Assembly (NCBI RefSeq): GCF_001542775.1
Contig: NZ_CP014145.1
Coordinates: 3,348,001 to 3,412,000, forward strand
Origin: Microterricola viridarii
Lineage (GTDB): Bacteria; Actinomycetota; Actinomycetes; Actinomycetales; Microbacteriaceae
DNA: 64,000 nt
Direction of reading: 5' to 3'
Made by a program: the position numbers and the translations under genes. Positions 34,559-53,041 of the stretch are shown piece after piece (positions within the stretch are counted from its first letter, which is position 1; each line of letters opens with the position of its first letter). The notes below the pieces were generated by a model. The model ran no database searches. It was not told where the DNA came from and saw only the letters and a list, made by a program, of their open reading frames with translations.

Positions 34559-34602
34559 TGAATTCTCCTCGTGCTTGTCGATGTGTGCTGCGGATGCGAT
34601 GG

Positions 34603-36339
34603 CTAGAGGCGGGTGCCCCAGGTGTCGCACCAGACGTTGTCGTTGAACGTGCCCTGGAACGCGCTGGCCCCGATGATCTTCTGCACCGATGCGTGGATCG
34701 CCTCGCGGCTCGGGGCGTGCGCGTGGATCATGGTCTTCACCATCGGCACGTCGATCAGGTGGTTCGGCTGGAACAGCGACACGAACACGGTCGGCACCTC
34801 GGTCACGTACCAGGGGATCTCCGCCGCCATCGGGGTGGACCAGCGGATGCGGATGCTGGCCTCCTGGGCGAAGCCCGCGACATTGGCGAACACGATGGCC
34901 GCGTCGTACTCCTCGGAGTAGTGCTCGTTGGCCTCTTCGCTCATCACGGTGTGGAAGTACACGTGCTCCTCGCCCTCGGCGGCACGCTGCAGGGCGTTCT
35001 TGAAGACGTGCACCTCGAAGCCGACCGCCTCGAGCTCCTCCTTGGCCATGTCGATGAAACCGCTCGGGTCGACCCCGGTGAAGTCGGCCTGGCCAGAGAC
35101 GCCATACAGGCGGATGCGGCGATGCGTCGCCGGGTCCAGGGGCAGGTTTCCCTGGGTGTCCTTGACCAGCGTGACGGTCTTGTCGGCGATGTCGGCGGCA
35201 ATCGCGTGGTGCTCGGGGCTGCCGATCACGCTGAGTGCCTCGGGGCCCGGCACCAGCTGCTCACGTGGAGTGGAGTGCAGGCCGAGTGTCGCCTTCAGGC
35301 CGAGGATGCGCTCAAGCGCCTCCTGCAGGCGCTGCTCGGTGATCACGCCGGAACGGTAGCCGTCCAGCATGTAGCGCAGGTCCTCCTCTGGATCGCGGAA
35401 GAACAGGAACATGTCGCAGCCGGCCGCGATCGAGGCCGGGACGGCGTCGCGCCGCGGCATCGCCTGGGTCATTCCGACCATCATCGACGCGTCGGTCAGG
35501 ATCAGGCCGTTGAAGCCGAGTTCGTCGCGCAGCAGATCCTGCAGCAGTTCCGGGGCGAGGGTCGCCGGCATGATCTCGGCATCGGTCATTCCCGGGCGGA
35601 AGTGCTTCGACAGCTCGGGGGCTCCGATGTGGCCGATCATGATCGACTGCACGCCGTGCTGGATCAGCTCGCGGTAGACCCGGCCGAAGGTGTCGGTCCA
35701 CTCCTCGTAGCCGAGGGTGTTGTAGGTGGTGACGACGTGCTGGTCGCGCTCGTCGATGCCGTCGCCCGGGAAGTGCTTCATGGCGGCGACCGAGTTCGAC
35801 TCGCTCAAACCGTCGAAGTACTCCTTGGCCCGCTCGATCACCACGTCGGGGGTGTTTCCGAACGACCGGGTGCTGATGACCGTGTTGCGCCAGTTGTAGT
35901 GGATGTCGACGATGGGCGCGAACGCCCAGTTGCAGCCGAGCGCCGCGGTCTCCCGGCCGGCAACCCGGCCCATGTCGCGGGCGATGGACTTGTCCGGGTT
36001 CGATCCGGCGCTCAAGTGCGTGGCAACGAGGGTGCCGTCGTCGATCGAGCCGAAGCCGCCCATCTCGGGGTTGGACGCCACCAACAGCGGCACCTTCGCC
36101 TGGGACTGCGCGTAGCGGATGTGCTCCTGCACAGTGCTCGATCCGGCTCCCATGTAGCGGATGCCGCCCACCTTGTACTCGCCGACTACGCGGTCGAGGT
36201 ACTCCGGCGTGAACGACGTGTTCAGGTTGATGAACAGCTGGCCGATCTTCTCCTCGAGCGTCAGCGAGTCGATGGTGTCGCGCACCCACGTGCTGGCCTG
36301 CTCGTCGAGATTGAACGGTTGGGCGCTGAGGTCGACCAT
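34603..36339 (-). CDS. Glycoside hydrolase family 3 enzyme of the NagZ-like subgroup
   Basis: The 578-residue protein carries the barrel of GH3 with KHFPGDG (K188) followed by an Asp-x-His loop (DERDQH), which corresponds to the flexible Asp-His acid/base dyad of NagZ-type beta-N-acetylglucosaminidases. The nucleophile is in GFNGLILTDASMMVGM. An alpha/beta sandwich domain follows (ADKTVTLVKDTQGNLPLD). No signal peptide is seen, so substrates are imported. Start 36339 has AAGGAT upstream; ATG 36366 is the alternative. A LacI-type operator lies about 70 bases upstream. NagZ-like members include N-acetylglucosaminidases, phosphorylases and glucosidases; the uronate context makes a uronide or amino-sugar glycoside plausible. 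Confidence 0.87.
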   Translation of the reverse strand: MVDLSAQPFNLDEQASTWVRDTIDSLTLEEKIGQLFINLNTSFTPEYLDRVVGEYKVGGIRYMGAGSSTVQEHIRYAQSQAKVPLLVASNPEMGGFGSIDDGTLVATHLSAGSNPDKSIARDMGRVAGRETAALGCNWAFAPIVDIHYNWRNTVISTRSFGNTPDVVIERAKEYFDGLSESNSVAAMKHFPGDGIDERDQHVVTTYNTLGYEEWTDTFGRVYRELIQHGVQSIMIGHIGAPELSKHFRPGMTDAEIMPATLAPELLQDLLRDELGFNGLILTDASMMVGMTQAMPRRDAVPASIAAGCDMFLFFRDPEEDLRYMLDGYRSGVITEQRLQEALERILGLKATLGLHSTPREQLVPGPEALSVIGSPEHHAIAADIADKTVTLVKDTQGNLPLDPATHRRIRLYGVSGQADFTGVDPSGFIDMAKEELEAVGFEVHVFKNALQRAAEGEEHVYFHTVMSEEANEHYSEEYDAAIVFANVAGFAQEASIRIRWSTPMAAEIPWYVTEVPTVFVSLFQPNHLIDVPMVKTMIHAHAPSREAIHASVQKIIGASAFQGTFNDNVWCDTWGTRL

Positions 36340-36410
36340 GGTCACATCCTTGTGTGGAAACTGCAAAAAATTGGTGGTGATAGCACCATGTCACACCATC
36401 GCTGGGAGTT

Positions 36411-36428
36411 TTGTCAATCGGTTGCCAA
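36411..36428. promoter_or_regulatory. LacI-family operator, site 1
   Basis: TTGTCAATCGGTTGCCAA, a near-palindrome, lies between the divergent GH3 and TIM-barrel/dehydrogenase operons. It matches sites at 39780, 39856, 46427 and 49463. Confidence 0.75.
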
Positions 36429-36522
36429 AATCGCGGAACCGGACGTAGAGTGGCCGCATGCCCAGCGGCGAACCGTCGCCGGGTTCTCAACGAGGCGAAT
36501 CTTCTGCGGAGGCAATTTCATC

Positions 36523-37371
36523 GTGTCAACCACGCTCACCCCCACCTGGACCCTGTCGGGATTCGGCGACGAGATCGACCCGGAACCGGCCGTTCAGGTC
36601 GCCGTCCTGAAGGCGCTCGGCGCGAGCCACATTGAGGTGCGCAGCGCGTGGACCACGAATGTCGTCGACCTCGACGACGAGCAGCTCGAGCGCCTGCGCG
36701 CGATCCTCACAGCCCAGGAGGTGGCGGTCTCGGCGATCGCATCACCCATCGGCAAGGTCGACGTCTCGCTCGATGCCGAGCTCGAGGTGCACCGCCTTCG
36801 GCGCATCATTCGCGTCGCCCACGCGCTGGAAACCCCCAACATCCGGGTCTTCTCGTTCTTCCGCGGCGAGGGTGTCTCGGTCGAGAGCACCAGGGACGCG
36901 GTCATGACGCGCATGCGGCTGTTGGCCCACGAGGCCGAGAAGGCCGGCGTCGTGCTGCTGCACGAGAACGAGAAAGACATCTACGGCGACACCCCCGAGC
37001 GCGTGCTCGACCTGGTCGAGAGCGTCGGGTCGCCCGCGCTGCGCCTCGCCTGGGACAACGCCAACTTCGTGCAGGTCGGCGCGAAGCCGTTCACCGACGG
37101 CTACGCAATGCTGCGCCCCTACCTGGACTACCTGCAGGTGAAGGACGCCGTCGCCGCAACGGGCGAGGTCGTGCCAGCAGGCCAGGGCGACGGCGAACTG
37201 CGCGAGACCCTGACCGCGCTGCGTGACGACGGCTACAGTGGCTTCGCCTCGCTCGAGCCGCACCTGGCCGCCCAGCACGCCCTCGGTGGATTCTCCGGCC
37301 CCGCCGCGTTCGGCCAGGCCGCCAGAGCCTTCGCCGGACTGCTCGCCGAGATCGGGGTCGGCGCGAAATGA
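36523..37371 (+). CDS. TIM-barrel sugar isomerase/epimerase-like protein with altered metal site
   Basis: The 282-residue barrel keeps VLLHENEKDIYGD (Glu148 or Glu150), LRLAWDNANFVQVG (Asp178) and FASLEPHL (Glu245). Where this family has H-x-K-D, it has LQVKDA, so Gln205 replaces the usual metal-binding histidine. The GTG start at 36523 is supported by GGAGG 10 bases upstream. It is first in a coupled chain with two Gfo/Idh dehydrogenases (ATGA overlaps) directly downstream of LacI site 1. The dehydrogenase partnership suggests it acts on a keto-sugar; the precise reaction is unknown. Confidence 0.82.
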   Translation: MSTTLTPTWTLSGFGDEIDPEPAVQVAVLKALGASHIEVRSAWTTNVVDLDDEQLERLRAILTAQEVAVSAIASPIGKVDVSLDAELEVHRLRRIIRVAHALETPNIRVFSFFRGEGVSVESTRDAVMTRMRLLAHEAEKAGVVLLHENEKDIYGDTPERVLDLVESVGSPALRLAWDNANFVQVGAKPFTDGYAMLRPYLDYLQVKDAVAATGEVVPAGQGDGELRETLTALRDDGYSGFASLEPHLAAQHALGGFSGPAAFGQAARAFAGLLAEIGVGAK

Positions 37372-38465
37372 CCGGAGAGAACCTCACCGTCAACGGCGAT
37401 GCTGAGCAACTGGCTCCCCACACACGTCGCGTCGCGGTCATCGGCTGCGGCGACATCTCCGCCATCCACCTGGCAGCGATCGCCGGCCTGCCCGGCGCCA
37501 GACTGGTCGGGGTGTCCGATCCGGATGCCGCCAGGCTGGCCGCGGCGGTCCACGCGCACAGGGTGCCCGGGTTCGCCGACCACCTGGAGCTGTTCGCCGA
37601 GCTCGCGCCCGACGTCGTGCACATCTGCACCCCGCACAACACGCATGCGCAACTGGCGATCGACGCCCTCGAGCGCGGCATCAACGTGATCGTCGAGAAG
37701 CCGCTCGCCGATTCGCGTGAAGAAGGCAGGCGGGTAGCGGCCGCTGCCAGGAACAGCACGGCGAGAATCGGCGTGTGCTTCCAGAATCGGTACAACGCGC
37801 CGGTTGTCGCAGCACAGGCCCTGTTGGCAGGCGGCACCCTGGGCTCGATCAGGGGAGCGTCTGCCACCGTGAGCTGGCACCGCACCGCGGAGTACTACCT
37901 CGACAGGCCATGGCGTGGCACCTGGTCCGGCGGTGGCGGCGGGCTGCTGATGAACCAGGCGATCCACACCATCGACCTGCTGCACTGGCTCGTTGGCCCG
38001 GTCTCTGACGTCGACGGTCATGCAAGCACCAGGCACCTCGGTGATGTCATCGAGGTGGAAGACACCGCAGAACTGATGCTGAGCCATGAGAACGGTGCGC
38101 GCAGCGTCTTCTACGCCACGCTGGCCCACACTATGAATTCCCCGGTCAGTATCGAGATCGTGACCGATGGGGCGGTTCTTCTGCTCAAGGGCGATCTCAC
38201 CGTCACGTACTCGGATGGCCGAACAGAGCTCATCAGGGAGACCAACGCCGCAACCGGGGAGCGTGCCTACTGGGGCATCTCGCACGAGCTGCTCATCGCT
38301 GACTTCTACCGTGGCCTCGATTCTGGAGAGCCGTTCTGGATTGATCCGGACGAAGCGCAGAAATCCCTCGACGTCGTTCAAGACGTCTATGACCTGTCGT
38401 ACGGCACGCGCACTGGCGCGCTCCCGCACACGATCGATTCCCCCTCACAGAAAGCAGTTTCATGA
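37368..38465 (+). CDS. Gfo/Idh/MocA-family NAD(P)-dependent sugar dehydrogenase 1
   Basis: The 365-residue protein has an N-terminal Rossmann fold (RRVAVIGCGDISAIHLAAIAGL, about 21-42), the VIVEKPLADSREEG motif with the catalytic Lys region, and a C-terminal domain beginning SIRGASATVSWHRT with the usual MNQAIHTIDLLHWLVGP active-site helix (His in the IHTID stretch). The family oxidises or reduces hydroxyls of sugars, inositols and glycosides. It is coupled by ATGA at both ends, between the TIM-barrel gene and a second dehydrogenase. Confidence 0.88.
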   Translation: MTGENLTVNGDAEQLAPHTRRVAVIGCGDISAIHLAAIAGLPGARLVGVSDPDAARLAAAVHAHRVPGFADHLELFAELAPDVVHICTPHNTHAQLAIDALERGINVIVEKPLADSREEGRRVAAAARNSTARIGVCFQNRYNAPVVAAQALLAGGTLGSIRGASATVSWHRTAEYYLDRPWRGTWSGGGGGLLMNQAIHTIDLLHWLVGPVSDVDGHASTRHLGDVIEVEDTAELMLSHENGARSVFYATLAHTMNSPVSIEIVTDGAVLLLKGDLTVTYSDGRTELIRETNAATGERAYWGISHELLIADFYRGLDSGEPFWIDPDEAQKSLDVVQDVYDLSYGTRTGALPHTIDSPSQKAVS

Positions 38466-39628
38466 CTAAGAAGGTACGCATCGGCATCATTGGGCTCGGC
38501 GCCCAGGGGTCTATGTACGCGAAGTTCATCACCGATGGCCTGGTGCCGAACATGGAAATCGGGGCCATCGCAGACATCGACCCGGCCAAGGCGGAGAGTG
38601 CGGCATCCGACTACCCGGGAATCCCGTTCTTCTCTGACTACCTGGAGATGATCGAGAGCGGCAGCGTCGACGCCGTCGTCACCTGCGTCCCGCACTTCCT
38701 GCACCCGCAGATCGGCATCGAGGCGCTGCAGCGCGACATCCATGCCCTGGTCGAGAAGCCGGCAGGCGTCTACACCAAGCAGGTCGCGGAGCTCAATGCC
38801 TATGCGCTCACCAAGCCGGAGCTGAGCTTCGGAATCATGTTCAACCAGCGCAACAATCCGCTGTACATCCGCCTCAAGGAGATCGTCGACGGCGGCGAGA
38901 TCGGCAGCATCCTGCGCTCGAACTGGATCATCACCAACTGGTGGCGCCCGCAGGGCTACTACGACCAGAGTGCCTGGCGCGCCACCTGGGGCGGTGAGGG
39001 CGGCGGCGTGCTCGTCAACCAGGCCCCGCACCAGCTCGACCTGTGGCAGTGGATCTGCGGCGTTCCGAAGTCGGTGTACTCGAAGGTCGCCTACGGCTAC
39101 CGCCGCAACATCGCGGTCGAGGACGAGGTCACCGCGTTGGTCGACTACGGCAACGGCGCCACCGGTGTCTTCATCACCGCCACTCACGAGATGACCGGAA
39201 CTGACCGCTTCGAGATCGTCGGATCGCAGGGCAAGATCGTCGTCGAGAACTCGAAGACCGCGACCGTCACCCGGCTGAAGCGCCCGGAGCGCGAGCTCAG
39301 CGAGAACATGGACATGAGCGACGTCATGAAGCTGTTCATGGGCCAGCTCGACACCGACGACTACTACGAGCAGGAGACCATCGAGTTCGACTCGGTGTGG
39401 GGTGCCCAGCACGCCGGCGTGCTCGAGAACTTTGCCGCGAACATCCTCGACGGGACTCCGCTACTGGCGCCCGGATCCGACGGCATCAAGGGAGTGCGCT
39501 TGGCGAATGCCATCCACCTCTCCAGCTGGACGGGCAGGGAAGTATCGCTCGACTTCGACGAGGACGAGTTCATCGCGGAGCTGAACTCCCGAATCGCCGA
39601 CGAGGACAAGTTCCCCGTGCTGGTCTAG
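38462..39628 (+). CDS. Gfo/Idh/MocA-family NAD(P)-dependent sugar dehydrogenase 2
   Basis: The 388-residue paralogue has VRIGIIGLGAQGSMYAKFI at the N-terminus, ALVEKPAGVYTKQV as the EKP motif, and GGVLVNQAPHQLDLWQWICG as the C-terminal active-site helix. It shares little beyond family motifs with the preceding dehydrogenase, so the two probably act on different hydroxyls or in opposite directions. Coupled by ATGA. It ends the transcription unit; two LacI-type operators follow before the ABC transporter. Confidence 0.88.
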   Translation: MTKKVRIGIIGLGAQGSMYAKFITDGLVPNMEIGAIADIDPAKAESAASDYPGIPFFSDYLEMIESGSVDAVVTCVPHFLHPQIGIEALQRDIHALVEKPAGVYTKQVAELNAYALTKPELSFGIMFNQRNNPLYIRLKEIVDGGEIGSILRSNWIITNWWRPQGYYDQSAWRATWGGEGGGVLVNQAPHQLDLWQWICGVPKSVYSKVAYGYRRNIAVEDEVTALVDYGNGATGVFITATHEMTGTDRFEIVGSQGKIVVENSKTATVTRLKRPERELSENMDMSDVMKLFMGQLDTDDYYEQETIEFDSVWGAQHAGVLENFAANILDGTPLLAPGSDGIKGVRLANAIHLSSWTGREVSLDFDEDEFIAELNSRIADEDKFPVLV

Positions 39629-39779
39629 CCCCGAACCTGGCCGGCTGTCGAGCTGGTCCAGCACCGCCAGCGGTGGCTGCGCGGGGCCGTGCCTGTGGCG
39701 CGGACCCGCGCTTCAGCGTGCCCGCCAGCGAGGGCGCAATGCGCACGCGCACGCTCACAGGCGATGAATTGTCACAGTT

Positions 39780-39797
39780 TTGACAATCGGTTGCCAA
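39780..39797. promoter_or_regulatory. LacI-family operator, site 2
   Basis: TTGACAATCGGTTGCCAA lies 115 bases upstream of the substrate-binding protein start, followed closely by a -10-like TATAGC region (39812-39817). Confidence 0.75.
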
Positions 39798-39855
39798 GTC
39801 CTCATTCCCTGATATAGCTTTACGGCAACAACCAAGAGCCACGCCTTCATGTCGG

Positions 39856-39873
39856 CTGGCAATCGGTTGCACC
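39856..39873. promoter_or_regulatory. LacI-family operator, site 3 (weaker)
   Basis: CTGGCAATCGGTTGCACC keeps the GGCAATCGGTTGC core and lies 76 bases (7 helical turns) from site 2, a spacing that would allow DNA looping between two bound dimers. Confidence 0.6.
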
Positions 39874-39911
39874 CTCACCGTCGAGAAACACACAGCAAAC
39901 AGGAGACAACA

Positions 39912-41453
39912 ATGAAGTTTCGTCCCCGGGTGGCGGCCGTCGCCCTACTCACCGCGGCAGCGATAACACTGACCGCCTGCTCAGGAAGCGGCGCTCAACC
40001 GGCCTCGTCCAATGGCTCGGCCGTCACGGGTGGCACGCTCACGATCGGCGCCCTCGTCGACGTGAAGTCGTTCGACCCGGCCCAGGCCCACATCGGCCAT
40101 TACGTCCAGTACTACCAGCCCGTGTATGACTCCCTGCTGCGTCGCGAAGCAGACGGCACGCTGGTGCCTATGCTCGCGACGGCGTGGGAGTACAACTCCG
40201 ACAACACCGAGCTCACCCTCACCCTCCGCGACGACGTGACCTTCACCGACGGAACCAAGCTCGACGCCGAAGCGGTCAAGATCAACCTCGACCGGTTCCG
40301 CACCGGCAACGGCCCCGACGCGTCGACCTTGGCGCAGGTCTCTGACGTCACCGTCGCCGACGCCACTACCGTGGTGATCACGCTCAAGGCCCAGGACCCC
40401 GCGCTGCTCGACTATCTCGGCAACGCCGATGGCTTCATTGCCAGTCCCGCGGCGGTAGAGGGCGGCAAGTTGGCCACAGACCCGGTCGGCAGCGGACCGT
40501 ACACGCTCGACAAGTCCAAGACCGTCGCGGCCTCCTCCTACACCTTCGTGAAGAACCCCGACTACTGGGACCCGTCGCTCCAGGTCTACGACACGATCGT
40601 GGTCAAGCCGATCCTCGATACCACCGCCATGTCGAACGCCCTCCTCTCCGGGCAGCTCAATGCGGCGCTGCTCACCGCGAAGACGCAGCCGCAGGCCAAG
40701 GGTGCCGGCCTCACCGAGTACAACTACCCGACCGACTGGCAGGGACTGCTGTTCTTCGACCGCGATGGAACCATGGTTCCCGAGCTCGCCGACGTGAGGG
40801 TGCGTCAGGCCATCAACTACGCGATCGACAAGGAAACCCTGCTCGCCCAGGTGGGCAAGGGTCTCGGTACAGCGACCAGCCAGCCGTTCGGCAAGGGCAC
40901 CGACGCATTCGACGAGTCGCTCGAGTCGGCGTACCCGTATGACGTTGACAAGGCAAAGGAGCTCCTCAGCGAGGCAGGCGTCGGTGAGTTCAGCATCACC
41001 ATGCCGACAGTCTCCGGGTTCTTGGACCCTGCCCTCACGGCCGGTATTGGCCAGAACCTCGCCGACGTCGGCATCACGGTGAATTGGGAGAACGTGGCCG
41101 GTTCGGACTTCATTTCAAGCCTGGTTCAGGGCAAATACGCCGCCAGCTGGTTCTCGCTGTTCCAGGGTTCGCCCTGGGTTGCGGTCAACCAGATCATCGC
41201 CCCCGAGGCCACGTACAACCCGTTCCACACGACCGATGCGAAGGTCGAAACGCTCATCACGGCCATCCAGACCGGTTCGGCCGAGGAGCAGAAGACGGCG
41301 GCCCAGGAAATCAACAAGTACATCGTCGAGCAGGCCTGGTTCGCCCCGTTCTACCGTCCAGACCAGATCTTCTTCACTGACAAGAACACCACGACCGAGC
41401 CGCAGTTGCAGCAGGCCGTGCCGTCGATCTACTCCTACGCACCCGCGCAGTAG
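39912..41453 (+). CDS. ABC transporter substrate-binding lipoprotein, family 5
   Basis: The 513-residue protein has a lipoprotein signal (AITLTACSG; Cys23) and the family-5 fold: GGTLTIGALVDVKSFDPAQ, YDSLLRREADGTLVPMLATAWEYNSDNTELTLTLRDDVTFTDGT and VRVRQAINYAIDKETL. The family is named for peptide binding (DppA/OppA) but members also bind oligosaccharides and other solutes. Placed between LacI operators and sugar-acid genes, it more likely captures a uronic-acid-containing oligosaccharide or glycoside than a peptide. AGGAGA precedes the ATG. Confidence 0.9.
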   Translation: MKFRPRVAAVALLTAAAITLTACSGSGAQPASSNGSAVTGGTLTIGALVDVKSFDPAQAHIGHYVQYYQPVYDSLLRREADGTLVPMLATAWEYNSDNTELTLTLRDDVTFTDGTKLDAEAVKINLDRFRTGNGPDASTLAQVSDVTVADATTVVITLKAQDPALLDYLGNADGFIASPAAVEGGKLATDPVGSGPYTLDKSKTVAASSYTFVKNPDYWDPSLQVYDTIVVKPILDTTAMSNALLSGQLNAALLTAKTQPQAKGAGLTEYNYPTDWQGLLFFDRDGTMVPELADVRVRQAINYAIDKETLLAQVGKGLGTATSQPFGKGTDAFDESLESAYPYDVDKAKELLSEAGVGEFSITMPTVSGFLDPALTAGIGQNLADVGITVNWENVAGSDFISSLVQGKYAASWFSLFQGSPWVAVNQIIAPEATYNPFHTTDAKVETLITAIQTGSAEEQKTAAQEINKYIVEQAWFAPFYRPDQIFFTDKNTTTEPQLQQAVPSIYSYAPAQ

Positions 41454-41460
41454 CTAGCCC

Positions 41461-41490
41461 GGGTCCCCGCCCGCGCATGGGCGGGGACCC
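41461..41490 (+). terminator. Intercistronic hairpin after the substrate-binding protein gene
   Basis: Perfect 12-base arms (41461-41472 / 41479-41490) with a 6-base loop, 7 bases after the stop. Such hairpins commonly keep binding-protein mRNA more abundant than the downstream permease mRNA. Confidence 0.65.
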
Positions 41491-41541
41491 CTCCCTCACG
41501 TTTGCTTCACCCCCCACCAACCACCTGACAACGGAGCAGAA

Positions 41542-42483
41542 ATGGTTTCCTTTATCGTCCGACGCCTGATTTCGGGCGTGGTGGTGCTCTTCGTAGTGTC
41601 GTCGTTGACTTTCTTTATGTTGTACTTTTCGGCGACAAGCGTCGCCCGCAACATCCTGGGTGAATCGGCCACGCAGGCGCAGGTGCACCTCAAAGAGATC
41701 GAGCTCGGTCTTGATCAGCCCCTCTTTTCCCGCTACGTGGACTGGCTGGGAGGTGCACTCAGCGGCAACTTCGGTGTGTCGTGGTTCAACAGCCAGCCCG
41801 TAGTCGACAGCATCGTCGGGCGTCTTCCCACGACGCTGTCCATCGTCCTGGTGACGATCGTGATCGCCGCGGTCTTGGCCACGTTGTTCGGCGTCGCTGC
41901 AGCTGTGCGCCGCGGATGGGTGGATCGCCTGCTGCAGATCGTCTCCATCGGCGCATCTGCCATCCCTCAATTCGTTGTCGCGATTGTGCTGGTCACTGTC
42001 TTCGCGATCGGCCTGCAACTGTTGCCCGCGACGGGTTATGTGCCCCTGACCGATAGCTTCGGGGGCTGGCTCGCCTCGATCACGCTGCCGATCATCGCCT
42101 TGGCGATCGGCGCCGTCGCCTCGACCGCCCAGCAGGTCCGAAGCGCCGTGATCACCGTGCTCAGCCGTGACTATGTGCGAACGCTCCGCAGCCGCGGCTT
42201 GGCCCCACGGGAGATCCTGTTCCGGCATGTGCTGCGTGGCGCGGCCCCGGCCGGACTCACCGTGTTGTCGCTGCAGTTCATCGGAATGCTCGGTGGCGTT
42301 GTCGTGCTCGAGCAGATCTTCGCCCTTCCTGGGCTGGGATTCCTGGCGCTGCAGTCCACTACCCAGGGTGACATGCCCGTTCTGATGGGTGTCGTGGTCT
42401 ACATCGTCATCATCGTTGTTGTTGTCAACTTGCTGGTCGACCTCGCCGTCGGCTGGCTGAACCCGAAGGCGCGTGTGTCATGA
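41542..42483 (+). CDS. ABC transporter permease (DppB/OppB-like)
   Basis: The 313-residue permease has about six spans, the first at residues 9-35 (SGVVVLFVVSSLTFFML), and a coupling loop YVRTLRSRGLAPREILFRHVLRGA. FIGMLGGVVVLEQIFALPGLG is a hallmark of the DppB/OppB group. Its stop overlaps the start of the fused permease-ATPase gene (ATGA). Confidence 0.92.
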   Translation: MVSFIVRRLISGVVVLFVVSSLTFFMLYFSATSVARNILGESATQAQVHLKEIELGLDQPLFSRYVDWLGGALSGNFGVSWFNSQPVVDSIVGRLPTTLSIVLVTIVIAAVLATLFGVAAAVRRGWVDRLLQIVSIGASAIPQFVVAIVLVTVFAIGLQLLPATGYVPLTDSFGGWLASITLPIIALAIGAVASTAQQVRSAVITVLSRDYVRTLRSRGLAPREILFRHVLRGAAPAGLTVLSLQFIGMLGGVVVLEQIFALPGLGFLALQSTTQGDMPVLMGVVVYIVIIVVVVNLLVDLAVGWLNPKARVS

Positions 42484-44297
42484 CCGAAACATTGGCTGAG
42501 ACCCCACAGCCCGCAGCAGTGGTCCGTACGGGTGTGTTCCGCCGGCTCCTGAAGAACCCCCTGGGCCTGGCGGCCCTGATCATCCTCGGGATCGTGGTCT
42601 TGACCGGAATCTTCGGACCCTTTCTCGCCCCGTTCGACCCCAACAAGGCCGACCTGGCGAATGCCTTGGCCGCTCCCGGCACCGACGGGCACCTTCTCGG
42701 TACCGACAGCGCAGGGCGCGATGTGCTCAGCCGGCTGCTGGTCGGCGCGCAGAGCACCCTGCTTGCCGCCGCCCTCGCCGCGATCGTTGCCCTGCTGATC
42801 GGACTGCCGACCGGACTGCTGGCCGGCTACTTCGGGGGCAAGTTCGACACCGTGGCGAGCTGGTGCACGAACGTGCTGATGTCGCTCCCGGCGATCATCA
42901 TCCTGCTCGCCGCCAGCGCAGCGCTGGGCCGGTCGGTGTGGATTTCTATGACCGTGTTCGGCGTGCTGATGTCGCCCGGAATGTTCCGACTCACCCGCAC
43001 GTCGGTGCAGGCGGTGCGCAACGAGCTCTACGTCGACGCGGCACGGGTTGCCGGTCTCAGCACCGCCAGCATCATCGGCAAGCACATCCTGTTCGTGGTG
43101 CGCGCACCTCTCATCATCCAGACCTCGATCGTCTGCGGCATCGCCATCGCGATCCAGGCAGCCCTTGAATTCCTGGGACTGGGCGACCCGCTCACCCCCA
43201 CCTGGGGCGTGATGCTCAACGAAGGCTTCATCAACATCTACGGCTCTCCGATCCTCGCCGTGTGGCCTGGCCTCGCGATCTCGCTCACCGTCGGCGCGTT
43301 CGTGGTCCTCGGCAACGCATTGCGTGATGCTTTGGAGGACGCGCCCAAGTTCAAACGAACCAAGCCCATCCAGCTCACCCCGCCGAAGACCGAGTCGGTG
43401 ACCGCGGTCGACCTCGCCGCAGCCGAGCACCTGCTGAGCGTCTCGCGTCTCGGCGTCGGTTACCCGCAGCAGGGCGGCTCGACCAAAGTCGTCGTCACTG
43501 ATGTGTCGTTCTACCTGGACCGTGGCGAAGTACTCGGTATTGTCGGTGAATCAGGGTCGGGCAAGTCACAGACCGCGTTCTCGATCCTCGGACTTCTTCC
43601 CGATGAGGCCGAGATCCTGGGTGGCAGCATCACCTTCGACGGCATTCCGTTGGTCTCGGCCGGTGGCAGCCGCCTGTCGCAGGGGCGTCTGTCCGAGCTG
43701 CGCGGAAAGCGCATCGCGTACATTCCGCAGGAGCCGATGTCGAACCTCGACCCGAACTTCACGATCGGCTACCAGCTGGTGCGACCGCTCACCCGAGTGC
43801 TCAAAATGTCGAAGGCCGACGCCACCGCGCGGGCGCTCGAGCTTCTCGCCATCGTGGGGATCACCAACCCGCAGCGCACATTCGACGCCTACCCGCACGA
43901 GGTCTCCGGCGGTATGGCACAGCGCGTGTTGATCGCCGGAGCCGTCAGCTGCAACCCCGACCTCTTGATCGCCGACGAGCCCACCACCGCACTCGACGTG
44001 ACGGTGCAGGCGGAGGTACTCGACCTGCTTCGCGATTTGCAGGCCCGTTTCAACATGGGTGTGATGCTCGTGACGCATAACTTCGGTGTGGTCGCCGACC
44101 TCTGCGACCGCGTGGTCGTGATGCAGAACGGTCGTGTCGTCGAATCCGGCGACGTGCGCACGATCCTCCGCGCCCCGCAGGAGCAGTACACGCGCACCCT
44201 GCTCGGGGCGATGCTCGAGGGCAAGACGCCCATGAGTGCGCTCACTGTCACCGAACCGGCATCCGAATTCGACACTTCAGTGAAAGTTGGTCTGTGA
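42480..44297 (+). CDS. Fused ABC permease (DppC-like) and ATP-binding protein (DppD-like)
   Basis: The 605-residue protein joins two subunits. Residues about 1-290 are a DppC permease with five to six spans, GTDSAGRDVLSRLLVGAQ and the loop VDAARVAGLSTASIIGKHIL. After a linker (KRTKPIQLTPPKTESV), residues about 318-605 form an ATPase with Walker A VGESGSGKS (about 355), VSGGMAQRVLIAGA signature, LLIADEPTTALD Walker B and MLVTHNFGVVADLCDRVVV. The reading frame is continuous through the linker, so fusion is real unless the sequence has an indel. It fixes these domains at 1:1 and leaves the next gene to supply the second ATPase. Confidence 0.9.
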   Translation: MTETLAETPQPAAVVRTGVFRRLLKNPLGLAALIILGIVVLTGIFGPFLAPFDPNKADLANALAAPGTDGHLLGTDSAGRDVLSRLLVGAQSTLLAAALAAIVALLIGLPTGLLAGYFGGKFDTVASWCTNVLMSLPAIIILLAASAALGRSVWISMTVFGVLMSPGMFRLTRTSVQAVRNELYVDAARVAGLSTASIIGKHILFVVRAPLIIQTSIVCGIAIAIQAALEFLGLGDPLTPTWGVMLNEGFINIYGSPILAVWPGLAISLTVGAFVVLGNALRDALEDAPKFKRTKPIQLTPPKTESVTAVDLAAAEHLLSVSRLGVGYPQQGGSTKVVVTDVSFYLDRGEVLGIVGESGSGKSQTAFSILGLLPDEAEILGGSITFDGIPLVSAGGSRLSQGRLSELRGKRIAYIPQEPMSNLDPNFTIGYQLVRPLTRVLKMSKADATARALELLAIVGITNPQRTFDAYPHEVSGGMAQRVLIAGAVSCNPDLLIADEPTTALDVTVQAEVLDLLRDLQARFNMGVMLVTHNFGVVADLCDRVVVMQNGRVVESGDVRTILRAPQEQYTRTLLGAMLEGKTPMSALTVTEPASEFDTSVKVGL

Positions 44298-45208
44298 TGA
44301 ACGCATCCACCAGCACCCAGACAGGATCGGGCAGCACCCAGACCGGTTCGAGCGCGCTGCTCCGGGTCGACAACCTCATCGTGGAATACCCCGGCACAGG
44401 GTTCCGGGCCAAGCCCTTCCGTGCGCTGGACGACGTGTCGATCCACATCGGCGCCGGAGAGACCCTGGGCCTGGTCGGCGAGTCCGGCTCAGGCAAGACC
44501 ACCCTCGGGCGCGCCCTGCTCGGCCTCGCTCCCGTCTCTGGTGGCACGATTCGCTTCGACAACGAAGACATCAGCCAGGCGAGCCGCAGCAAGCGCCGCG
44601 CACTCAGCCGTGACCTGCAGGTCGTCTTCCAGGATCCCTACACCTCGCTCAACCCGTCGATGGCGGTGGGCGACATCCTGTCGGAGCCGCTGACCGTGCA
44701 GGGCAGGAGCCGCTCGGATGCCCGCAGGCGCGTGCGTGAGGTGCTCGATCAGGTGGGCCTGCCGCAGGATTCCATCGGCCGGATGCCGCGCGAGTTCAGC
44801 GGCGGGCAGCGGCAGCGCGTCGCAATCGCCCGGGCGCTCGCCCTCTCGCCCAAGCTCATCGTCTGTGACGAGCCCGTCTCTGCGCTCGACCTCACCACAC
44901 AGGCCCGGGTGCTCGACCTGTTCCTGCAGATTCAGCGCGACACGGGCGTGTCCTACCTGTTCGTCTCGCACGACCTCGACGTCGTGCGCCACATCAGCCA
45001 CCGGGTCGCCGTGATGTACCGCGGCGAGATCGTGGAGCAGGGTCCGGCCGGGCAGGTCACCACCACGCCGGAACACCCGTATACCCAGCGACTGCTGTTG
45101 GCCTCGCCGGTGCCGGACCCCGACCGGCAGGAGCAGCGCCGGGACAACCGGCGCAGACTGCTTGAAGAGCAGCGTGCGCACGACATCCAGGCCGGGGTCG
45201 CCGCCTGA
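44297..45208 (+). CDS. ABC transporter ATP-binding protein (DppF/OppF-like)
   Basis: The 303-residue ATPase has Walker A VGESGSGKTTLGRALLGL, Q-loop VVFQDPYTSLNPSM, signature FSGGQRQRVAIARALAL, Walker B LIVCDEPVSALDLTTQ and the C-terminal oligopeptide-transporter extension (HPYTQRLLLASPVPDPD). ATG 44297 shares a base with the preceding TGA; GTG 44294 is possible. It completes the importer with 39912, 41542 and 42480 and precedes the LacI gene by 37 bases. Confidence 0.92.
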   Translation: MNASTSTQTGSGSTQTGSSALLRVDNLIVEYPGTGFRAKPFRALDDVSIHIGAGETLGLVGESGSGKTTLGRALLGLAPVSGGTIRFDNEDISQASRSKRRALSRDLQVVFQDPYTSLNPSMAVGDILSEPLTVQGRSRSDARRRVREVLDQVGLPQDSIGRMPREFSGGQRQRVAIARALALSPKLIVCDEPVSALDLTTQARVLDLFLQIQRDTGVSYLFVSHDLDVVRHISHRVAVMYRGEIVEQGPAGQVTTTPEHPYTQRLLLASPVPDPDRQEQRRDNRRRLLEEQRAHDIQAGVAA

Positions 45209-45245
45209 TGCCGGGACTGTGGCACGATACAAGCGGGAGCAATAG

Positions 45246-46358
45246 ATGAACGCCCCGGTCGGTGTCTCAACGACACCCGAAGCCACGAGAGGTGAGCAGA
45301 GCGTGACGAGTGACGTGACGAGCGACGACACCGCCGAAACGCGGCCCGGCCGACGCTCGAAAGCGCCTGCAACCATCTACGACATCGCCAAGCTGGCCGG
45401 CGTCAACCCGTCGACCGTCTCCCGCGCGCTGAGCAAGCCCGGCCGCATCAACATCAAGACCGAGGAACGCATCCACGCCGCGGCGAAAGAGCTGAACTAC
45501 CGGCTGAACCCCATGGCGCGCGCGCTGCCGACCGGCCGCACCAGCACGCTCGGGCTGCTGCTCGCCGACATCACGAACCCGATGTTCTTCGAGGTGGTGC
45601 GTGGTGCAGAGCGCGCGGCCAGCCGCCGCGGCTACACGCTGATCCTCGCCGAGTCGCAGGAGTCGGGCGAGCGCGAGGCCGAGGCGGCCGAGCGCGTCGC
45701 CCCCTCGGTCGACGGTCTGGTGCTCGTCACCACCCGCCTCGGGGACGAGCAGATCCGGGAGCTCGCTGAACGCAAGCCGCTCGTCGTCATCAACCGAGAG
45801 GTCGAGGGGGTGCTCGGCATCGTCCCCGACCTCGATCCTGGCATCGACGAGGCGCTCGCACACCTCGCCGCGCTCGGTCACACCTCGCTGGCCTTCGTGT
45901 CCGGGCCGGCGAACTCGTGGATGAGCGGCGCCCGCTGGGCGACCCTCCTGGCGAAGGCGCCAGCACTCGGAATGACAATCGTCGAGATCGGGCCAGGTGT
46001 GCCGACCCTCGACGGAGGTGCTGCAGCGCTGTCGCGCGTCGCGGCGTCCGGGGTGAGTGCCGTCATTGCATACAACGACCTGATGGCAATCGGTCTGATG
46101 CGCGCCGCGCAGGAGCAGGGGATCGACGTTCCCAGCCGGCTCAGCATCATCGGCTTCGACGACATCTTTGGCTCAGACTTCACCTCGCCCCAGCTCAGCA
46201 CGATCCGCACCCCGCTCGGCGCCATCGGCGAGCGGGCAATCCGACTGGCCCTCGAACTCATCGACGAGTACGCGGACGGCACGCCGGCGCGCCCCGACGA
46301 AAGCCCGCTGCCCACCGAGCTCGTTGTCAGGGGCTCGACCGGCCCCGTCCGCGCCTAG
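45246..46358 (+). CDS. LacI-family regulator, probable master regulator of the sugar-acid island
   Basis: The 370-residue protein has an Arg/Asp-rich 38-residue lead, then the LacI headpiece TIYDIAKLAGVNPSTVSRAL (about 43-62) with the RINIKTEERIHAAAKELNY hinge side, and a periplasmic-binding-protein-like core (TLGLLLADITNPMFFEVVRGAE, LAFVSGPANSWMSG, AVIAYNDLMAIGLMRAAQEQGIDVP, IIGFDDIFGSDFTSPQLSTIRTP). It is the only LacI protein in the window and lies in the centre of five matching palindromes whose CG centre is typical of LacI/GalR operators. The effector is likely a uronate or pathway intermediate. Confidence 0.92.
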   Translation: MNAPVGVSTTPEATRGEQSVTSDVTSDDTAETRPGRRSKAPATIYDIAKLAGVNPSTVSRALSKPGRINIKTEERIHAAAKELNYRLNPMARALPTGRTSTLGLLLADITNPMFFEVVRGAERAASRRGYTLILAESQESGEREAEAAERVAPSVDGLVLVTTRLGDEQIRELAERKPLVVINREVEGVLGIVPDLDPGIDEALAHLAALGHTSLAFVSGPANSWMSGARWATLLAKAPALGMTIVEIGPGVPTLDGGAAALSRVAASGVSAVIAYNDLMAIGLMRAAQEQGIDVPSRLSIIGFDDIFGSDFTSPQLSTIRTPLGAIGERAIRLALELIDEYADGTPARPDESPLPTELVVRGSTGPVRA

Positions 46359-46426
46359 CGCGACCCACCGAGCCGGATCCGTCTGATCGGGCGGGCAGAG
46401 CCACACGGCGGCGCTCCGGTGTGTTT

Positions 46427-46444
46427 TTGGCAACCGGTTGACAA
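46427..46444. promoter_or_regulatory. LacI-family operator, site 4
   Basis: TTGGCAACCGGTTGACAA is the best palindrome of the set. It lies 35 bases upstream of the uxaC start and 69 bases after the lacI-type stop codon. Confidence 0.78.
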
Positions 46445-46478
46445 ACGCCTGCACCCGCTGTTCACTAAAGGAGTGACA

Positions 46479-47894
46479 ATGATGACTCTTACCCTTGACC
46501 CAGACCGGCTCTTCCCGGTCGACCCGGCCACGCGCGCTGTCGCCCGCGGCCTCTACCAGCGAGTGGCAGAGCTGCCGATCATCTCGCCACACGGACATGT
46601 CGACCCGCGACTGCTGCTCGACAACGAGCCATTCGGTGATCCGGCCGAGCTTTTCATCCGCTTCGACCACTATGTGACGCGGCTCATGCACGCCGCCGGC
46701 GTGCCGCTGACCGAGCTCGGCATCCCGAGCCGCACGGGCGGGACGCCTGTCGCGAATCCTCGGGAAGTGTGGCGCACGTTCTGCACTCACTGGCACCTGT
46801 ACGCGGGCACCTCGTCCGGCTATTGGCTGCGGCACGAGTTCGCCACCCTGTTCGACATCGACGTGCAGCCGTCAGAGGCCACCGCCGACGCGCTCTTCGA
46901 TCTCATCCAGGCGAAGCTGGCGACCGATGAATTCCGGCCGCGCGCGCTTTTTGCCCGGTTCAACATCGAGGTCATGGCCACCACCGACGACCCGATGGAC
47001 GACCTGGTCGCGCATCGCGCGCTGGCCGCCGACCCGAGCTTCACCGGCCGCGTGCTGCCCACCTTCCGGCCGGACGCCTACCTCAACCCGGCCGCGCCGG
47101 GCTGGGTCGAGCGGGTCGCCGCTCTGGCCGCGTGGAACGGCTCTGACGTCTCCAGCTATGCCGGATACATCGAGGCGCTCGCCGGCCGACGCCGCTTCTT
47201 TGTCGAGAACGGGGCGGTCTCAGCCGACCACGGTGTGCTGCAGCCGCTAGCCGTGGACCTCGCACCCGCAGAAGCGGCCGAATTGTTCGGCCGCGCTCTC
47301 GCTGGGGAGCTGACCGCTGCAGAGAGCCGCGTCTTCGCCGGCCACATGCTGCTCGAGATGGCCAGGATGAGCGTCGAGGACGGCCTCGTGATGACGGTGC
47401 ACCCCGGTGTCTTCCGCAACCACAGCAGCGCCACCTTCGAGGAGTTCGGTCCGGACACCGGCCACGACATCCCCGTCACCACGACCTACGTGGAGGCCAT
47501 GCGGCCGTTGCTCGAGAAGTACGGCAACAACCCCGACTTCCACCTCGTGCTGTTCAGCGTGGACGAGACCGTGTACTCGCGGGAGATCGCGCCGCTGGCC
47601 GGCTTCTACTCCAGCGTCTACATCGGCGCCCCGTGGTGGTTCTTGGACGCCCCGGACGCCGTCTTGCGCTTCCGCGCTGCGGTGACCGAGACGGCCGGTT
47701 TCTACCGCAGCTCCGGCTTCATCGACGACACCCGCGCGTTCCTCTCGATCCCGGCCAGGCACGATATGTCCCGTCGCCTGGATGCGGCGTTCCTCGCCCG
47801 GCTCGTCTGCGAGGGCCGCATTGACCTCGATGCGGCCGAGCGCATCATCGTCGACCTGGTCGACGCCCTTCCCCGAAAGGTGTTCAAGCTGTGA
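46479..47894 (+). CDS. uxaC: Glucuronate (uronate) isomerase
   Basis: UxaC converts D-glucuronate to D-fructuronate (and galacturonate to tagaturonate). The 471-residue protein shows the metal-binding ISPHGHVDP (His38, His40), THWHLYAGTSSGYWLRHEFA, VMATTDDPMDDL, LPTFRPDAYLNP and the C-terminal GAPWWFLDAPDAVLRFR typical of the family. AAAGGAG lies 5 bases before the first of two tandem ATG codons, so 46479 is used. GTGA overlap couples it to the reductase gene. Confidence 0.95.
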   Translation: MMTLTLDPDRLFPVDPATRAVARGLYQRVAELPIISPHGHVDPRLLLDNEPFGDPAELFIRFDHYVTRLMHAAGVPLTELGIPSRTGGTPVANPREVWRTFCTHWHLYAGTSSGYWLRHEFATLFDIDVQPSEATADALFDLIQAKLATDEFRPRALFARFNIEVMATTDDPMDDLVAHRALAADPSFTGRVLPTFRPDAYLNPAAPGWVERVAALAAWNGSDVSSYAGYIEALAGRRRFFVENGAVSADHGVLQPLAVDLAPAEAAELFGRALAGELTAAESRVFAGHMLLEMARMSVEDGLVMTVHPGVFRNHSSATFEEFGPDTGHDIPVTTTYVEAMRPLLEKYGNNPDFHLVLFSVDETVYSREIAPLAGFYSSVYIGAPWWFLDAPDAVLRFRAAVTETAGFYRSSGFIDDTRAFLSIPARHDMSRRLDAAFLARLVCEGRIDLDAAERIIVDLVDALPRKVFKL

Positions 47895-49333
47895 GCATTG
47901 CCACTGACATCGACACTGCCGTCGCCCCGCTGAGCCGCGCGGCCCTCGCCGCACGCACGGGCGAGAACGTGCGCACCCCGCCGGTGCGCATCATCCACCT
48001 CGGCCTCGGCGCCTTCCACCGCGCCCACCAGGCCTGGTACACCGACCAGGTCGACGACAATGGCGAGTGGGGGATTGCGGCGTTCACCGGGCGTAGCGCC
48101 CAGGCCGCGCTCGAGCTCTCCCCACAGGACGGCCTCTACACGCTCATCGAGCGTTCGGATGCCGGCGACAGCGCCGCGCTCGTCTCGAGCATCGTCGAAG
48201 CCGTCGACGGCAGCGACACGGCGCGCTTCGTCGAGCTGATGGCCGCCGAGTCGACCGCCCTCGTGACCCTCACCGTCACCGAGGCCGGATACCGGCTGCG
48301 CGCGGATGGCAGCCCGGATCTCGGCGACAGCGCGCTCGCCGCGGATGTCGCGTTCCTGGCCGACAACCTCGATCGGGCCGCGCGTGGCGCCTTCAGCGCA
48401 GGGGGCCCGACGACGACGCTCGGCCGCCTCGTTCTGGGTCTGGAGGCCAGGCGCCTGGCCGGCGCCGGGGCGATCGCGATCGTTCCCTGTGACAACATGC
48501 CAGACAACGGGCCGCTCGTCGAGCGCGCCGTGTGGGCGCTCGCCGCGATGCTGAACACCGAGACCGCCGAGTGGATCGCGGCGCACGTCGCCTTCGTCTC
48601 GACCTCCGTCGACCGGATCACACCGAAGACGACCGCGGACGACATCGAGGCGGCCGCCGGGCTCACCGGCTGGGCCGACCGCGCCCCGGTGGTCACCGAG
48701 CCGTTCCGTGACTGGGTGCTGAGCGGCCACTTCCCGGCCGGCAGGCCGGCCTGGGAGCGGGCGGGGGCTCGCTTCGTCGACGACATCGAGCCGTTCGAGC
48801 GCCGCAAGCTCTGGCTGCTCAACGGCGCACACAGCCTGCTGGCCTACGCAGGACTGCTGCGCGGGCTCGACAGCGTCGCCGCCGCCATGACCGACCCGGT
48901 CTGCCGGGGCTGGGTGAACGAGTTCTGGGATGACGCCGTGCGCCACCTCCCGGCCGAGCTGCTGGCACTGGATGAGTACCGGGCGGCCCTGCTCGAGCGC
49001 TTCGACAACACCCGCATCGAACACCGGCTCGCCCAGATCTCGGCCGAGGCCGTGACCAAGCTGCGGGTGCGCATTGCGCCGGTGGTGCTCGCCGAGCGCG
49101 CAGAGGGCCGCCAGGCGGCGGCCGGTATCCGTGCCATCGCCTCCTGGGCCTCCCTGGTGTTGGCCGGGCGGCCGATGGTCGACGCCGAGGCTGCGCAGAT
49201 CGCCGTGATCGCCTCACGGCCCACCGACGCCGCCATCGCGGGTCTGGTGGCCCTGGTGGACGCGCGGCTGGCGCAGGATGCCGCAATCCTGGCCGACATC
49301 ACGGCTCTGATCGGGGAGCACCAGGCCGAGTAA
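47891..49333 (+). CDS. uxuB: Fructuronate reductase / mannitol dehydrogenase family
   Basis: The 480-residue long-chain polyol dehydrogenase has the NAD-binding RIIHLGLGAFHRAHQAWYTD, VTEAGYRLR and IAIVPCDNMPDNG, then FVSTSVDRITPKT and RKLWLLNGAHSLLAYAGLLRG, containing the catalytic Lys and Asn-His residues of the family. Next to uxaC it most likely reduces D-fructuronate to D-mannonate. Mannitol or other polyols are possible alternatives. GTG start overlaps the uxaC stop. A 12-bp hairpin follows. Confidence 0.92.
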   Translation: MSIATDIDTAVAPLSRAALAARTGENVRTPPVRIIHLGLGAFHRAHQAWYTDQVDDNGEWGIAAFTGRSAQAALELSPQDGLYTLIERSDAGDSAALVSSIVEAVDGSDTARFVELMAAESTALVTLTVTEAGYRLRADGSPDLGDSALAADVAFLADNLDRAARGAFSAGGPTTTLGRLVLGLEARRLAGAGAIAIVPCDNMPDNGPLVERAVWALAAMLNTETAEWIAAHVAFVSTSVDRITPKTTADDIEAAAGLTGWADRAPVVTEPFRDWVLSGHFPAGRPAWERAGARFVDDIEPFERRKLWLLNGAHSLLAYAGLLRGLDSVAAAMTDPVCRGWVNEFWDDAVRHLPAELLALDEYRAALLERFDNTRIEHRLAQISAEAVTKLRVRIAPVVLAERAEGRQAAAGIRAIASWASLVLAGRPMVDAEAAQIAVIASRPTDAAIAGLVALVDARLAQDAAILADITALIGEHQAE

Positions 49334-49346
49334 CAACGGGTCGATG

Positions 49347-49378
49347 CAGCGCGGGCGGGGGATTCTCCGCCCGCGCTG
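49347..49378 (+). terminator. Hairpin terminator after the uxuB gene
   Basis: CAGCGCGGGCGG (49347-49358) pairs perfectly with CCGCCCGCGCTG (49367-49378). It ends the lacI-uxaC-uxuB stretch and precedes LacI site 5. Confidence 0.65.
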
Positions 49379-49462
49379 TCGTGCGTGCCGGGGTGGTCGG
49401 GTATGCGTAATCGGCGGTCGCCGGCCTCGTGGGCATCCCAGCTGGGCGTCTGGTGACAATAT

Positions 49463-49480
49463 TTGGCAACCGTTTGCCAT
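49463..49480. promoter_or_regulatory. LacI-family operator, site 5
   Basis: TTGGCAACCGTTTGCCAT lies upstream of a small reading frame and the GPH transporter operon. In the 390-base gap 49334-49723 I see this site, the terminator at 49347-49378 and the small frame at 49595-49693. Confidence 0.72.
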
Positions 49481-49594
49481 ATCTTTCCAATCGTGTTTCA
49501 CTTGATCCTGTCGAACACCGCTCCGCACCGGACTCAGGCTCGACATCCCCGCCGCAACGTCGCGTGCCGCAATGACGCGAACGAAAGGTACTCA

Positions 49595-49693: not shown

Positions 49694-49723
49694 GGCCTTC
49701 CGATCATGGGCAAAGGAGCCTCC

Positions 49724-51202: not shown

Positions 51203-51251
51203 CGCCGCGACCTCTGCGTGGCACCACCCCTCACACCCAGAAAGTAGCCTC

Positions 51252-52490: not shown

Positions 52491-52495
52491 TTGAG

Positions 52496-53041
52496 ATGAC
52501 CGAGCGTGCCGCTGAGTTTCCGCCGGTGCCTGTGCGCCCGCTGGTCGTCGTGATGGGGGTCTCCGGATCCGGCAAGACGACGATCGGCTCACTCATCGCC
52601 GAGGCTCTGCGGGTGCCATTCACGGATGCCGACGCACTGCACCCCCGCAGCAACGTCGTGAAGATGGCCGAGGGCACGCCGCTGAACGATGAGGACCGCT
52701 GGCCCTGGCTGGCCGTTGTCGGGAGCGAGATGGCCGCGGCATCCGACACGGGCATTGTGATGGCCTGTTCCGCGCTGAAGCGCCGCTACCGCGACGCCAT
52801 CAGGGCGGCCGTGCCCGGCGCGCTCTTCCTACACCTGCACGCGGAGCAGGAGGTGCTCGCCGCCCGCATGGAGGGGCGCAGCGGCCACTTCATGCCGCCG
52901 TCGCTGCTGGCCTCGCAGTTCGCGGCGCTGGAGATGCTCGAGCCCGACGAGAACGGTGCGATCGTCTCGGTGCGCGGGAGTGTGGAGGAGATCGTGCGGG
53001 CGGCCGTGGCCCAGCTGGCTGCGCCCGCCCCCGTGGGCTAG
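52496..53041 (+). CDS. gntK: Gluconokinase
   Basis: The 181-residue P-loop kinase phosphorylates D-gluconate to 6-phosphogluconate. It has Walker A GVSGSGKTT (about 21-29), FTDADALHPRSNVVKMAEGTPLNDEDRWPWL, CSALKRRYRDAIR and SGHFMPPSLLASQFAALE, the usual GntK signatures. ATG 52496 lies 6 bases after the manD stop; an in-frame GTG at 52487 overlapping that stop is an equally possible start. With the SMP-30 lactonase it may feed lactone-derived gluconate into the pentose phosphate pathway. Confidence 0.93.
   Translation: MTERAAEFPPVPVRPLVVVMGVSGSGKTTIGSLIAEALRVPFTDADALHPRSNVVKMAEGTPLNDEDRWPWLAVVGSEMAAASDTGIVMACSALKRRYRDAIRAAVPGALFLHLHAEQEVLAARMEGRSGHFMPPSLLASQFAALEMLEPDENGAIVSVRGSVEEIVRAAVAQLAAPAPVG

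Follow-up and report, generated by a model that had tools for sequence, protein, structure and literature searches.

Which protein reads the palindromes in a sugar-catabolic gene island of Microterricola viridarii, and what does that island degrade? We analysed a 64,000-nucleotide stretch of this actinobacterium (contig NZ_CP014145.1, positions 3,348,001 to 3,412,000; hereafter the window), in which an original prediction had described one palindrome family as the operators of a single LacI-type regulator, encoded from position 45246 (hereafter called 45246), and had read the surrounding genes as a glycoside/uronate island. A single local LacI-type regulon is the best reading of these sites, and one that the computation supports well: the sites are unique in the genome, recur at orthologous genes, track the helix-turn-helix (HTH) and hinge of the regulator, and co-occur with it. 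We consider it likely that 45246 is a local repressor of glucuronide catabolism, working through the promoter and pathway scheme proposed below.

Operators in the window and in the genome

The palindrome family had been placed at 36411, 39780, 39856, 46427 and 49463. All five coordinates are correct, but the sites are not the five equals they were taken for: four are strong and one is weak. In the following list mismatches are counted against TTGGCAACCGGTTGCCAA, and no strand is assigned.

36411..36428: operator 1, 2 mismatches; common to the divergent GH3 and TIM genes, recurring between the same genes in the relatives' loci L005-L008
39780..39797: operator 2, importer promoter, 2 mismatches; recurs in relatives
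39856..39873: weak second importer operator, 5 mismatches; 76 bp downstream of operator 2, in the 5' leader
46427..46444: operator 3, before uxaC, 1 mismatch
49463..49480: operator 4, before the transporter-manD-kinase genes, 2 mismatches; also found ahead of the transporter in relatives

The window holds no exact copy of TTGGCAACCGGTTGCCAA; one of its 18-mers has a single mismatch, three have two, none has three or four, one has five, six have six and 65 have seven. This distribution separates the four strong sites from background and leaves 39856 next in rank, the only 18-mer at its level and a site that would not stand on sequence alone. Every other 18-mer has at least six mismatches, in agreement with the earlier claim of no further copy in the window. 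When the pattern TTGGCAANCGNTTGCCAA was searched with up to three mismatches, the window gave 4 sites against a mean of 0.10 in 100 shuffles (maximum 1). At the same tolerance the whole genome (3,689,726 bases) contains no match beyond the four strong sites; reversing the pattern as a control yields one. An abundance of equally good matches in unrelated regions had been named in advance as what would refute the finding; the search of 3.69 Mb returned no further match with three mismatches or fewer, and this uniqueness favours it. The TGGCAANCGNTTGC core occurs at two genome positions only, 39857 and 49464. A literature search for the literal operator strings had a sole match, which concerns an unrelated human gene.

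As had been claimed, the sites lie in gaps before transcription units, all of them intergenic or in a leader. The solute-binding protein (SBP) gene probably starts at 39912, which places the 39856 site in its 5' leader. A start at 39849, which would make that site coding, was rejected; 39912 has a ribosome-binding site (RBS) and a lipoprotein signal. The description of a 20-kb island suits the genes, which span 33698-53041 (19.3 kb), rather than the sites, which span 13.1 kb.

The regulator and its relatives

The one regulator gene among the sites is the following.

45246..46358, plus strand: LacI-type regulator, with LacI HTH and Peripla_BP_3 over cut-off; 37 bp past the last importer gene

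Its N-terminal LacI HTH (PF00356) scores 56.8 bits against a cut-off of 27, and its periplasmic-binding-protein-like sensor domain (PF13377) 102 bits against 26.5. Only 1 of the 14 LacI HTH matches in the genome falls in the window, so that 45246 is indeed its sole LacI-type regulator. Twelve of the other HTHs are at most 46% identical to that of 45246 and none carries its signature; one further HTH was unaligned.

We collected the loci of relatives by a contig search with the LacI protein, keeping the best 80 of at least 206, and defined a signature class by GV[NS][PA]STVSRAL plus ARALPTG[RK][TS]. Sites with at most three mismatches are present in 42 of the 42 signature loci and in 2 of the 38 others, and these two (L010 and L012) have near-identical HTHs that the signature expression missed. 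Across the 42 signature loci (837,586 bases) there are 136 such sites, against a mean of 0.67 in Markov controls. Sites at orthologous positions were found in Microterricola pindariensis, Cryobacterium, Planctomonas, Microcella, Arthrobacter, Paenarthrobacter, Pseudarthrobacter and others. The cluster is also present in L015, a contig labelled as an Acidobacteria metagenome-assembled genome, with a manD 79% and a LacI 60% identical to those of the window, by transfer or misbinning.

These counts bear on the idea that the palindromes are chance matches or transcript hairpins and not operators. The stretch 49464-49479 does score as terminator-like, in a scan that found 10 such elements where 7.3 were expected. 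Against this stand the four window sites where 0.10 were expected, the lack of any other match in the genome and the 136 conserved sites, and we give the idea a negligible probability. A chance origin was rejected on the shuffles, the genome search and the Markov controls.

A survey of 150 genomes of the family, in which a site was allowed at most two mismatches and a LacI orthologue required a match at E ≤1e-90, found both in 18, LacI only in 4, a site only in 7 and neither in 121 (Fisher p 3.6e-14, kinship ignored). Such p-values overstate independence because relatives share ancestry. The 18 genomes with both contain 45 sites, 40 of them within 25 kb of lacI; the five more distant ones are in G005, G072, G006, G010 and G075, the first four with gene context given. 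In G005 it is uxaC-uxuB that has a site more than 1 Mb from lacI, and so the link between site and lacI is not only one of neighbourhood. The distant site of G072 sits on another contig, where the second TIM-barrel gene begins.

Another LacI-type regulator of the genome might own the sites, 45246 being a mere neighbour or one of several binders. Fourteen LacI HTH matches leave room for this, and 17 Arthrobacter-type loci have, next to the TIM operator, a second LacI HTH whose hinge differs, so that two regulators may share that site there. We nevertheless find it quite improbable, because the signature that tracks with the sites is absent from all 12 other aligned HTHs and all four strong sites lie less than 9 kb from 45246. 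The second LacI-type gene of the Arthrobacter-type loci has the hinge AKALSSG and is divergent to TIM, with an operator in the gap (for example L026 4696-5670 and L037 4663-5643).

Promoter geometry and paired operators

How might 45246 act at these sites? We compared 122 operators (at most three mismatches) that precede orthologous genes, counting the window's five. Their gene-proximal half is TTGCCA in 51, TTGACA in 45, TTGTCA in 23 and something else in 3. TANNNT begins 17 or 18 bp after this half in 67 of the 122; each of the other spacings tested, between 5 and 44, occurs in three or fewer. The half nearer the gene falls on the -35 box. At uxaC the gene side is TTGACA in 38 of 39 operators and the far half TTGCCA in all 39, so the asymmetry is oriented and is located in the -35 box. 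Among 38 relatives with a uxaC operator of at most three mismatches, 37 have its first base 49-50 bp ahead of where the aligned uxaC begins.

We therefore propose that 45246 binds the 18-bp CG-centred palindrome and that the bound dimer would cover the -35 hexamer, keeping RNA polymerase off: repression by exclusion. The repressor would be released by a pathway compound, whether substrate or intermediate (glucuronide, glucuronate, fructuronate or mannonate). At the importer, the weaker second operator 76 bp downstream may add cooperative or roadblock repression. Transcription of the importer could read through into lacI, whose start is 37 bp past the last importer gene, and autoregulation via the importer operators is therefore likely.

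Some members of the LacI family act as activators. That 45246 is mainly an activator, or represses some promoters and activates others, is compatible with its sequence, but the conserved overlap of operator and -35 box suits polymerase exclusion, and we regard activation as very improbable.

Two side observations concern the transcripts of this set. The uxaC gene has in-frame starts at 46473 (GTG), 46479 (ATG) and 46482 (ATG), and as the -10 candidate TTCACT is just 5' of them, the uxaC transcript may be leaderless or nearly so. The transporter has a leader (49481-49705) of 225 bp from operator to start, containing a short ATG-started frame behind an RBS-like stretch, and a leader peptide is possible.

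The two importer sites 76 bp apart, as originally described, are confirmed at 39780 and 39856, the second one being weak. An operator-like second site is found 77 or 78 bp downstream of the main importer operator in L005, L006, L007, L008, L011 and L013, and L068 has two importer sites 78 bp apart. In importer loci of the Arthrobacter type the position is upstream instead, with weak second sites 67-68 bp away in five loci and 77-79 bp away in five others. Overall, 30 importer leaders searched for a second match with at most six mismatches had one at 67-68 or 77-79 bp in 17 cases, only at other spacings in 5 and none in 8. The one-turn gap between 67 and 77 bp is a hint of looping or phased binding. 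Around 143 anchor operators (at most three mismatches) there are 50 second matches (at most six) within 140 bp, some counted from both ends, against a background of 7.9. After the 47 distinct pairs had been collapsed into 22 clusters that share promoter, direction and spacing, a search of periods from 10 to 11.5 peaked at R 0.53 (p 0.009) and a fixed period of 10.5 gave R 0.38 (p 0.04). Spacings of 116-118 depart from an 11-bp period, chance alone should yield some of the pairs, and the loci share ancestry; helical phasing of the paired operators is suggestive only.

Substrate, pathway and known systems

What, then, would the repressor control? The glycoside/uronate content ascribed to the island can be narrowed to glucuronide catabolism; UxaC, ManD and the transporter score over their cut-offs. 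The genes are as follows.

33698..34630, minus strand: second TIM-barrel protein, TIM2 (PF01261; Pfam), candidate eliminase or hydratase; directly behind GH3
34603..36339, minus strand: GH3 protein, beta-glucoside phosphorylase-like (Pfam Glyco_hydro_3; PDB)
36523..37371, plus strand: TIM-barrel protein, TIM (PF01261; Pfam)
37368..38465, plus strand: Gfo/Idh/MocA oxidoreductase, Gfo1, candidate pathway reductase (Pfam; PDB 3q2i E 6.1e-38, 8tdi E 2.7e-29)
38462..39628, plus strand: Gfo/Idh/MocA oxidoreductase, Gfo2, candidate glucuronide-3-dehydrogenase (PDB 8tdi)
39912..41453, plus strand: solute-binding lipoprotein SBP_bac_5 of an Opp-type importer (family scan)
41542..42483, plus strand: importer permease (family scan)
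42480..44297, plus strand: fused importer permease and ATPase, one 605-residue protein; the fusion is also found in relatives
44294..45208, plus strand: importer ATPase (family scan)
46479..47894, plus strand: uxaC, glucuronate isomerase (NCBIfam PRK02925 545 bits, cut-off 387)
47891..49333, plus strand: mannitol-dehydrogenase-family protein in the place of uxuB, candidate fructuronate reductase (Pfam)
49706..51202, plus strand: GPH symporter of glucuronide transporter type (NCBIfam PRK09848 582 bits, cut-off 528)
51252..52490, plus strand: manD, mannonate dehydratase (NCBIfam 688 bits, cut-off 550; PDB mannonate dehydratases)
52532..53041, plus strand: GntK-type kinase, start uncertain (TIGR01313 177 bits, cut-off 113.75)

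Gfo2 is a close, full-length homologue of the solved 8tdi, 'P2B11 Glucuronide-3-dehydrogenase' (E 1.6e-142; next PDB match E 5.4e-30), and the island therefore probably encodes oxidative glucuronide cleavage feeding glucuronate catabolism. Its genes read as one route, predicted from homology. The induced genes would import glucuronides, which would be cleaved by C3 oxidation and elimination through Gfo2, the TIM proteins and Gfo1, with GH3 as an accessory. Free glucuronate would then pass through UxaC, the UxuB-like reductase and ManD to 2-keto-3-deoxygluconate (KDG). The best PDB match of TIM2 is 8bvk (E 1.5e-18), followed by 8tct, 8tcd and 8tcs; its start is possibly 24 codons inside the open reading frame. 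In Arthrobacter-type loci the TIM2 gene lies inside the importer-lacI run, and the copy behind GH3 probably belongs to the regulated set. Of 42 loci with a manD at least 50% identical, 33 have a GntK-type kinase within 400 bp behind it. As ManD makes KDG, either this kinase phosphorylates KDG or a KDG kinase lies elsewhere; the genome has a match to the 2-keto-3-deoxy-6-phosphogluconate aldolase family outside the island.

The same operator type precedes beta-glucuronidase genes in five relatives (G004, G010, G012, G071 and G072). In G004, of the same genus, a UidA-type beta-glucuronidase gene (864 bits, cut-off 544) is directly behind a 3-mismatch operator and in one run with manD, gntK and lacI; in the other four an operator with at most two mismatches lies about 90-120 bp before the beta-glucuronidase match. 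The matches in G010, G012 and G092 have one in-frame stop each. We called the Gfo2 type at E ≤1e-80 and beta-glucuronidase at E ≤1e-100 in 21 genomes, G032 and G069 (without a site of at most two mismatches) among them: 8 have the Gfo2 type only (the window genome included), 5 beta-glucuronidase only, 4 both and 4 neither. G076 and G111, which the Gfo2 search left out, have a glucuronidase; G001 and G003, which have no sites, have neither Gfo2 nor a glucuronidase over cut-off. In the window genome no UidA-type enzyme passes the NF007538 cut-off of 544 bits, the best match scoring 71. Together, these operators and this enzyme distribution point to a glucuronide as the substrate of the regulon. 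In G004 an alpha-L-rhamnosidase gene (L134 9727-14157) precedes uxaC, in the same orientation and separated from it by an operator, a hint of plant rhamnosyl glucuronides as substrates.

A broader proposal is that one LacI lineage runs glucuronide use across the Micrococcales with the cleaving module exchanged (dehydrogenase, beta-glucuronidase or both) behind one operator type, and that the two spacings of the importer's second operator (67-68 or 76-79 bp, some one helical turn apart; downstream in Microbacteriaceae-type loci, upstream in those of Arthrobacter type) suggest repressor looping. We hold the chances for and against this to be about even.

The main substrate might instead be a neutral glycoside, degraded by GH3 and the Gfo and TIM proteins, with the glucuronate genes co-controlled because a natural polymer holds both sugars. 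GH3 would suit this: its best PDB match, almost full length, is 5vqd, 'Beta-glucoside phosphorylase BglX' (E 1.5e-115). So would an importer of oligopeptide/oligosaccharide type, and related TIM and Gfo enzymes that act on glucosides and levoglucosan (PMC10628242, PMC10066097). Gfo2 is nevertheless far closer to glucuronide-3-dehydrogenase than to any other solved protein, the transporter scores over the glucuronide transporter cut-off, and the same operators precede beta-glucuronidase genes in relatives. A neutral glycoside thus seems unlikely to us, and glucuronide catabolism under 45246 is the reading we prefer.

A number of observations count against it. Four LacI-positive genomes (G032, G069, G076 and G111) are without a site of at most two mismatches, and seven (G014, G028, G040, G061, G065, G098 and G137) have a site and no LacI orthologue. 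The distant site of G006 adjoins genes without an evident link to the pathway; that of G010 precedes a short-chain dehydrogenase gene, with no clear pathway gene adjoining. The relatives, moreover, are not independent. In the window a true TANNNT is present only at TIM (TAGAGT, 18 bp), the other -10 candidates being degenerate (TTCACT at 17 for both uxaC and the transporter, TATAGC at 16 for the importer, TGACAT at 18 for GH3), and a generic promoter scan found the TIM promoter and missed the other four of the five. Among the enzymes, TIM has weak PDB matches (5tnv E 1.5e-7 and 3dx5 E 2.5e-7), and the 47891 protein falls below the cut-offs of both the fructuronate reductase model (213 bits, cut-off 603) and the arabinitol dehydrogenase model (235, cut-off 600). 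The island yielded no identified KDG kinase, the kinase beside manD being GntK-type, and none was searched for outside it.

How does this compare with known systems? The uid, uxu and uxa genes of E. coli are controlled by non-LacI repressors, and glucuronides are hydrolysed there by UidA. The likeness lies in a glucuronide transporter, glucuronate isomerase, fructuronate reduction and mannonate dehydration under repressor control; the differences are the repressor family and the window genome's lack of a UidA-type enzyme over cut-off. The P2B11 glucuronide-3-dehydrogenase is reportedly part of the work of Nasseri et al. (2024, Nature), and the likeness to it, the homology of Gfo2, is known from PDB title and sequence only.

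The closest operon to the cleaving module is in Agrobacterium, where glycosides are degraded by oxidation, elimination, hydration and reduction (PMC10628242). That operon, too, opens its route with a Gfo/GlycDH-type step, and it has a further oxidoreductase as well as two TIM-barrel 'sugar phosphate isomerases'; its O-glycoside beta-eliminase AtOGE is 8bvk, the best match of TIM2. It differs from the present set, which would combine a predicted glucuronide-type dehydrogenase, GH3, a glucuronate pathway, two uptake systems and a LacI regulator. LacI-type factors are among the neighbours of levoglucosan genes (PMC10066097). Among the papers listed in our literature searches, none dealt with LacI control of glucuronate or 3-keto-glucuronide genes in these bacteria, and no regulator for the oxidative glucuronide cleavage route appeared. 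For that route the island would supply a regulator, an operator set and a short inducer list. It also predicts growth on glucuronides in bacteria that lack a UidA-type beta-glucuronidase, and the operator motif could serve to annotate the pathway in many actinobacteria.

In its design the regulon resembles the local LacI-family regulons of Ravcheev et al. 2014 (PMC4052901), among which the LacI groups ExuR, KdgR, UxaR and UxuR serve glucuronate and galacturonate. The main text of that paper makes no mention of Arthrobacter or Micrococc-, its supplements and RegPrecise being outside this check. Shared features are an even, CG-centred palindrome, sites ahead of operons for sugar catabolism, a scope of one pathway and few operons, likely autoregulation and occasional paired sites. 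The island has the operator form of a local LacI regulon, four strong sites in one island, and sites conserved with the regulator. The design is thus already known, and what we describe is a new instance of it, whose interesting parts are the exchangeable cleaving module and the oriented overlap of operator and -35 box, an example of operators whose asymmetry is oriented by the -35 box that they overlap.

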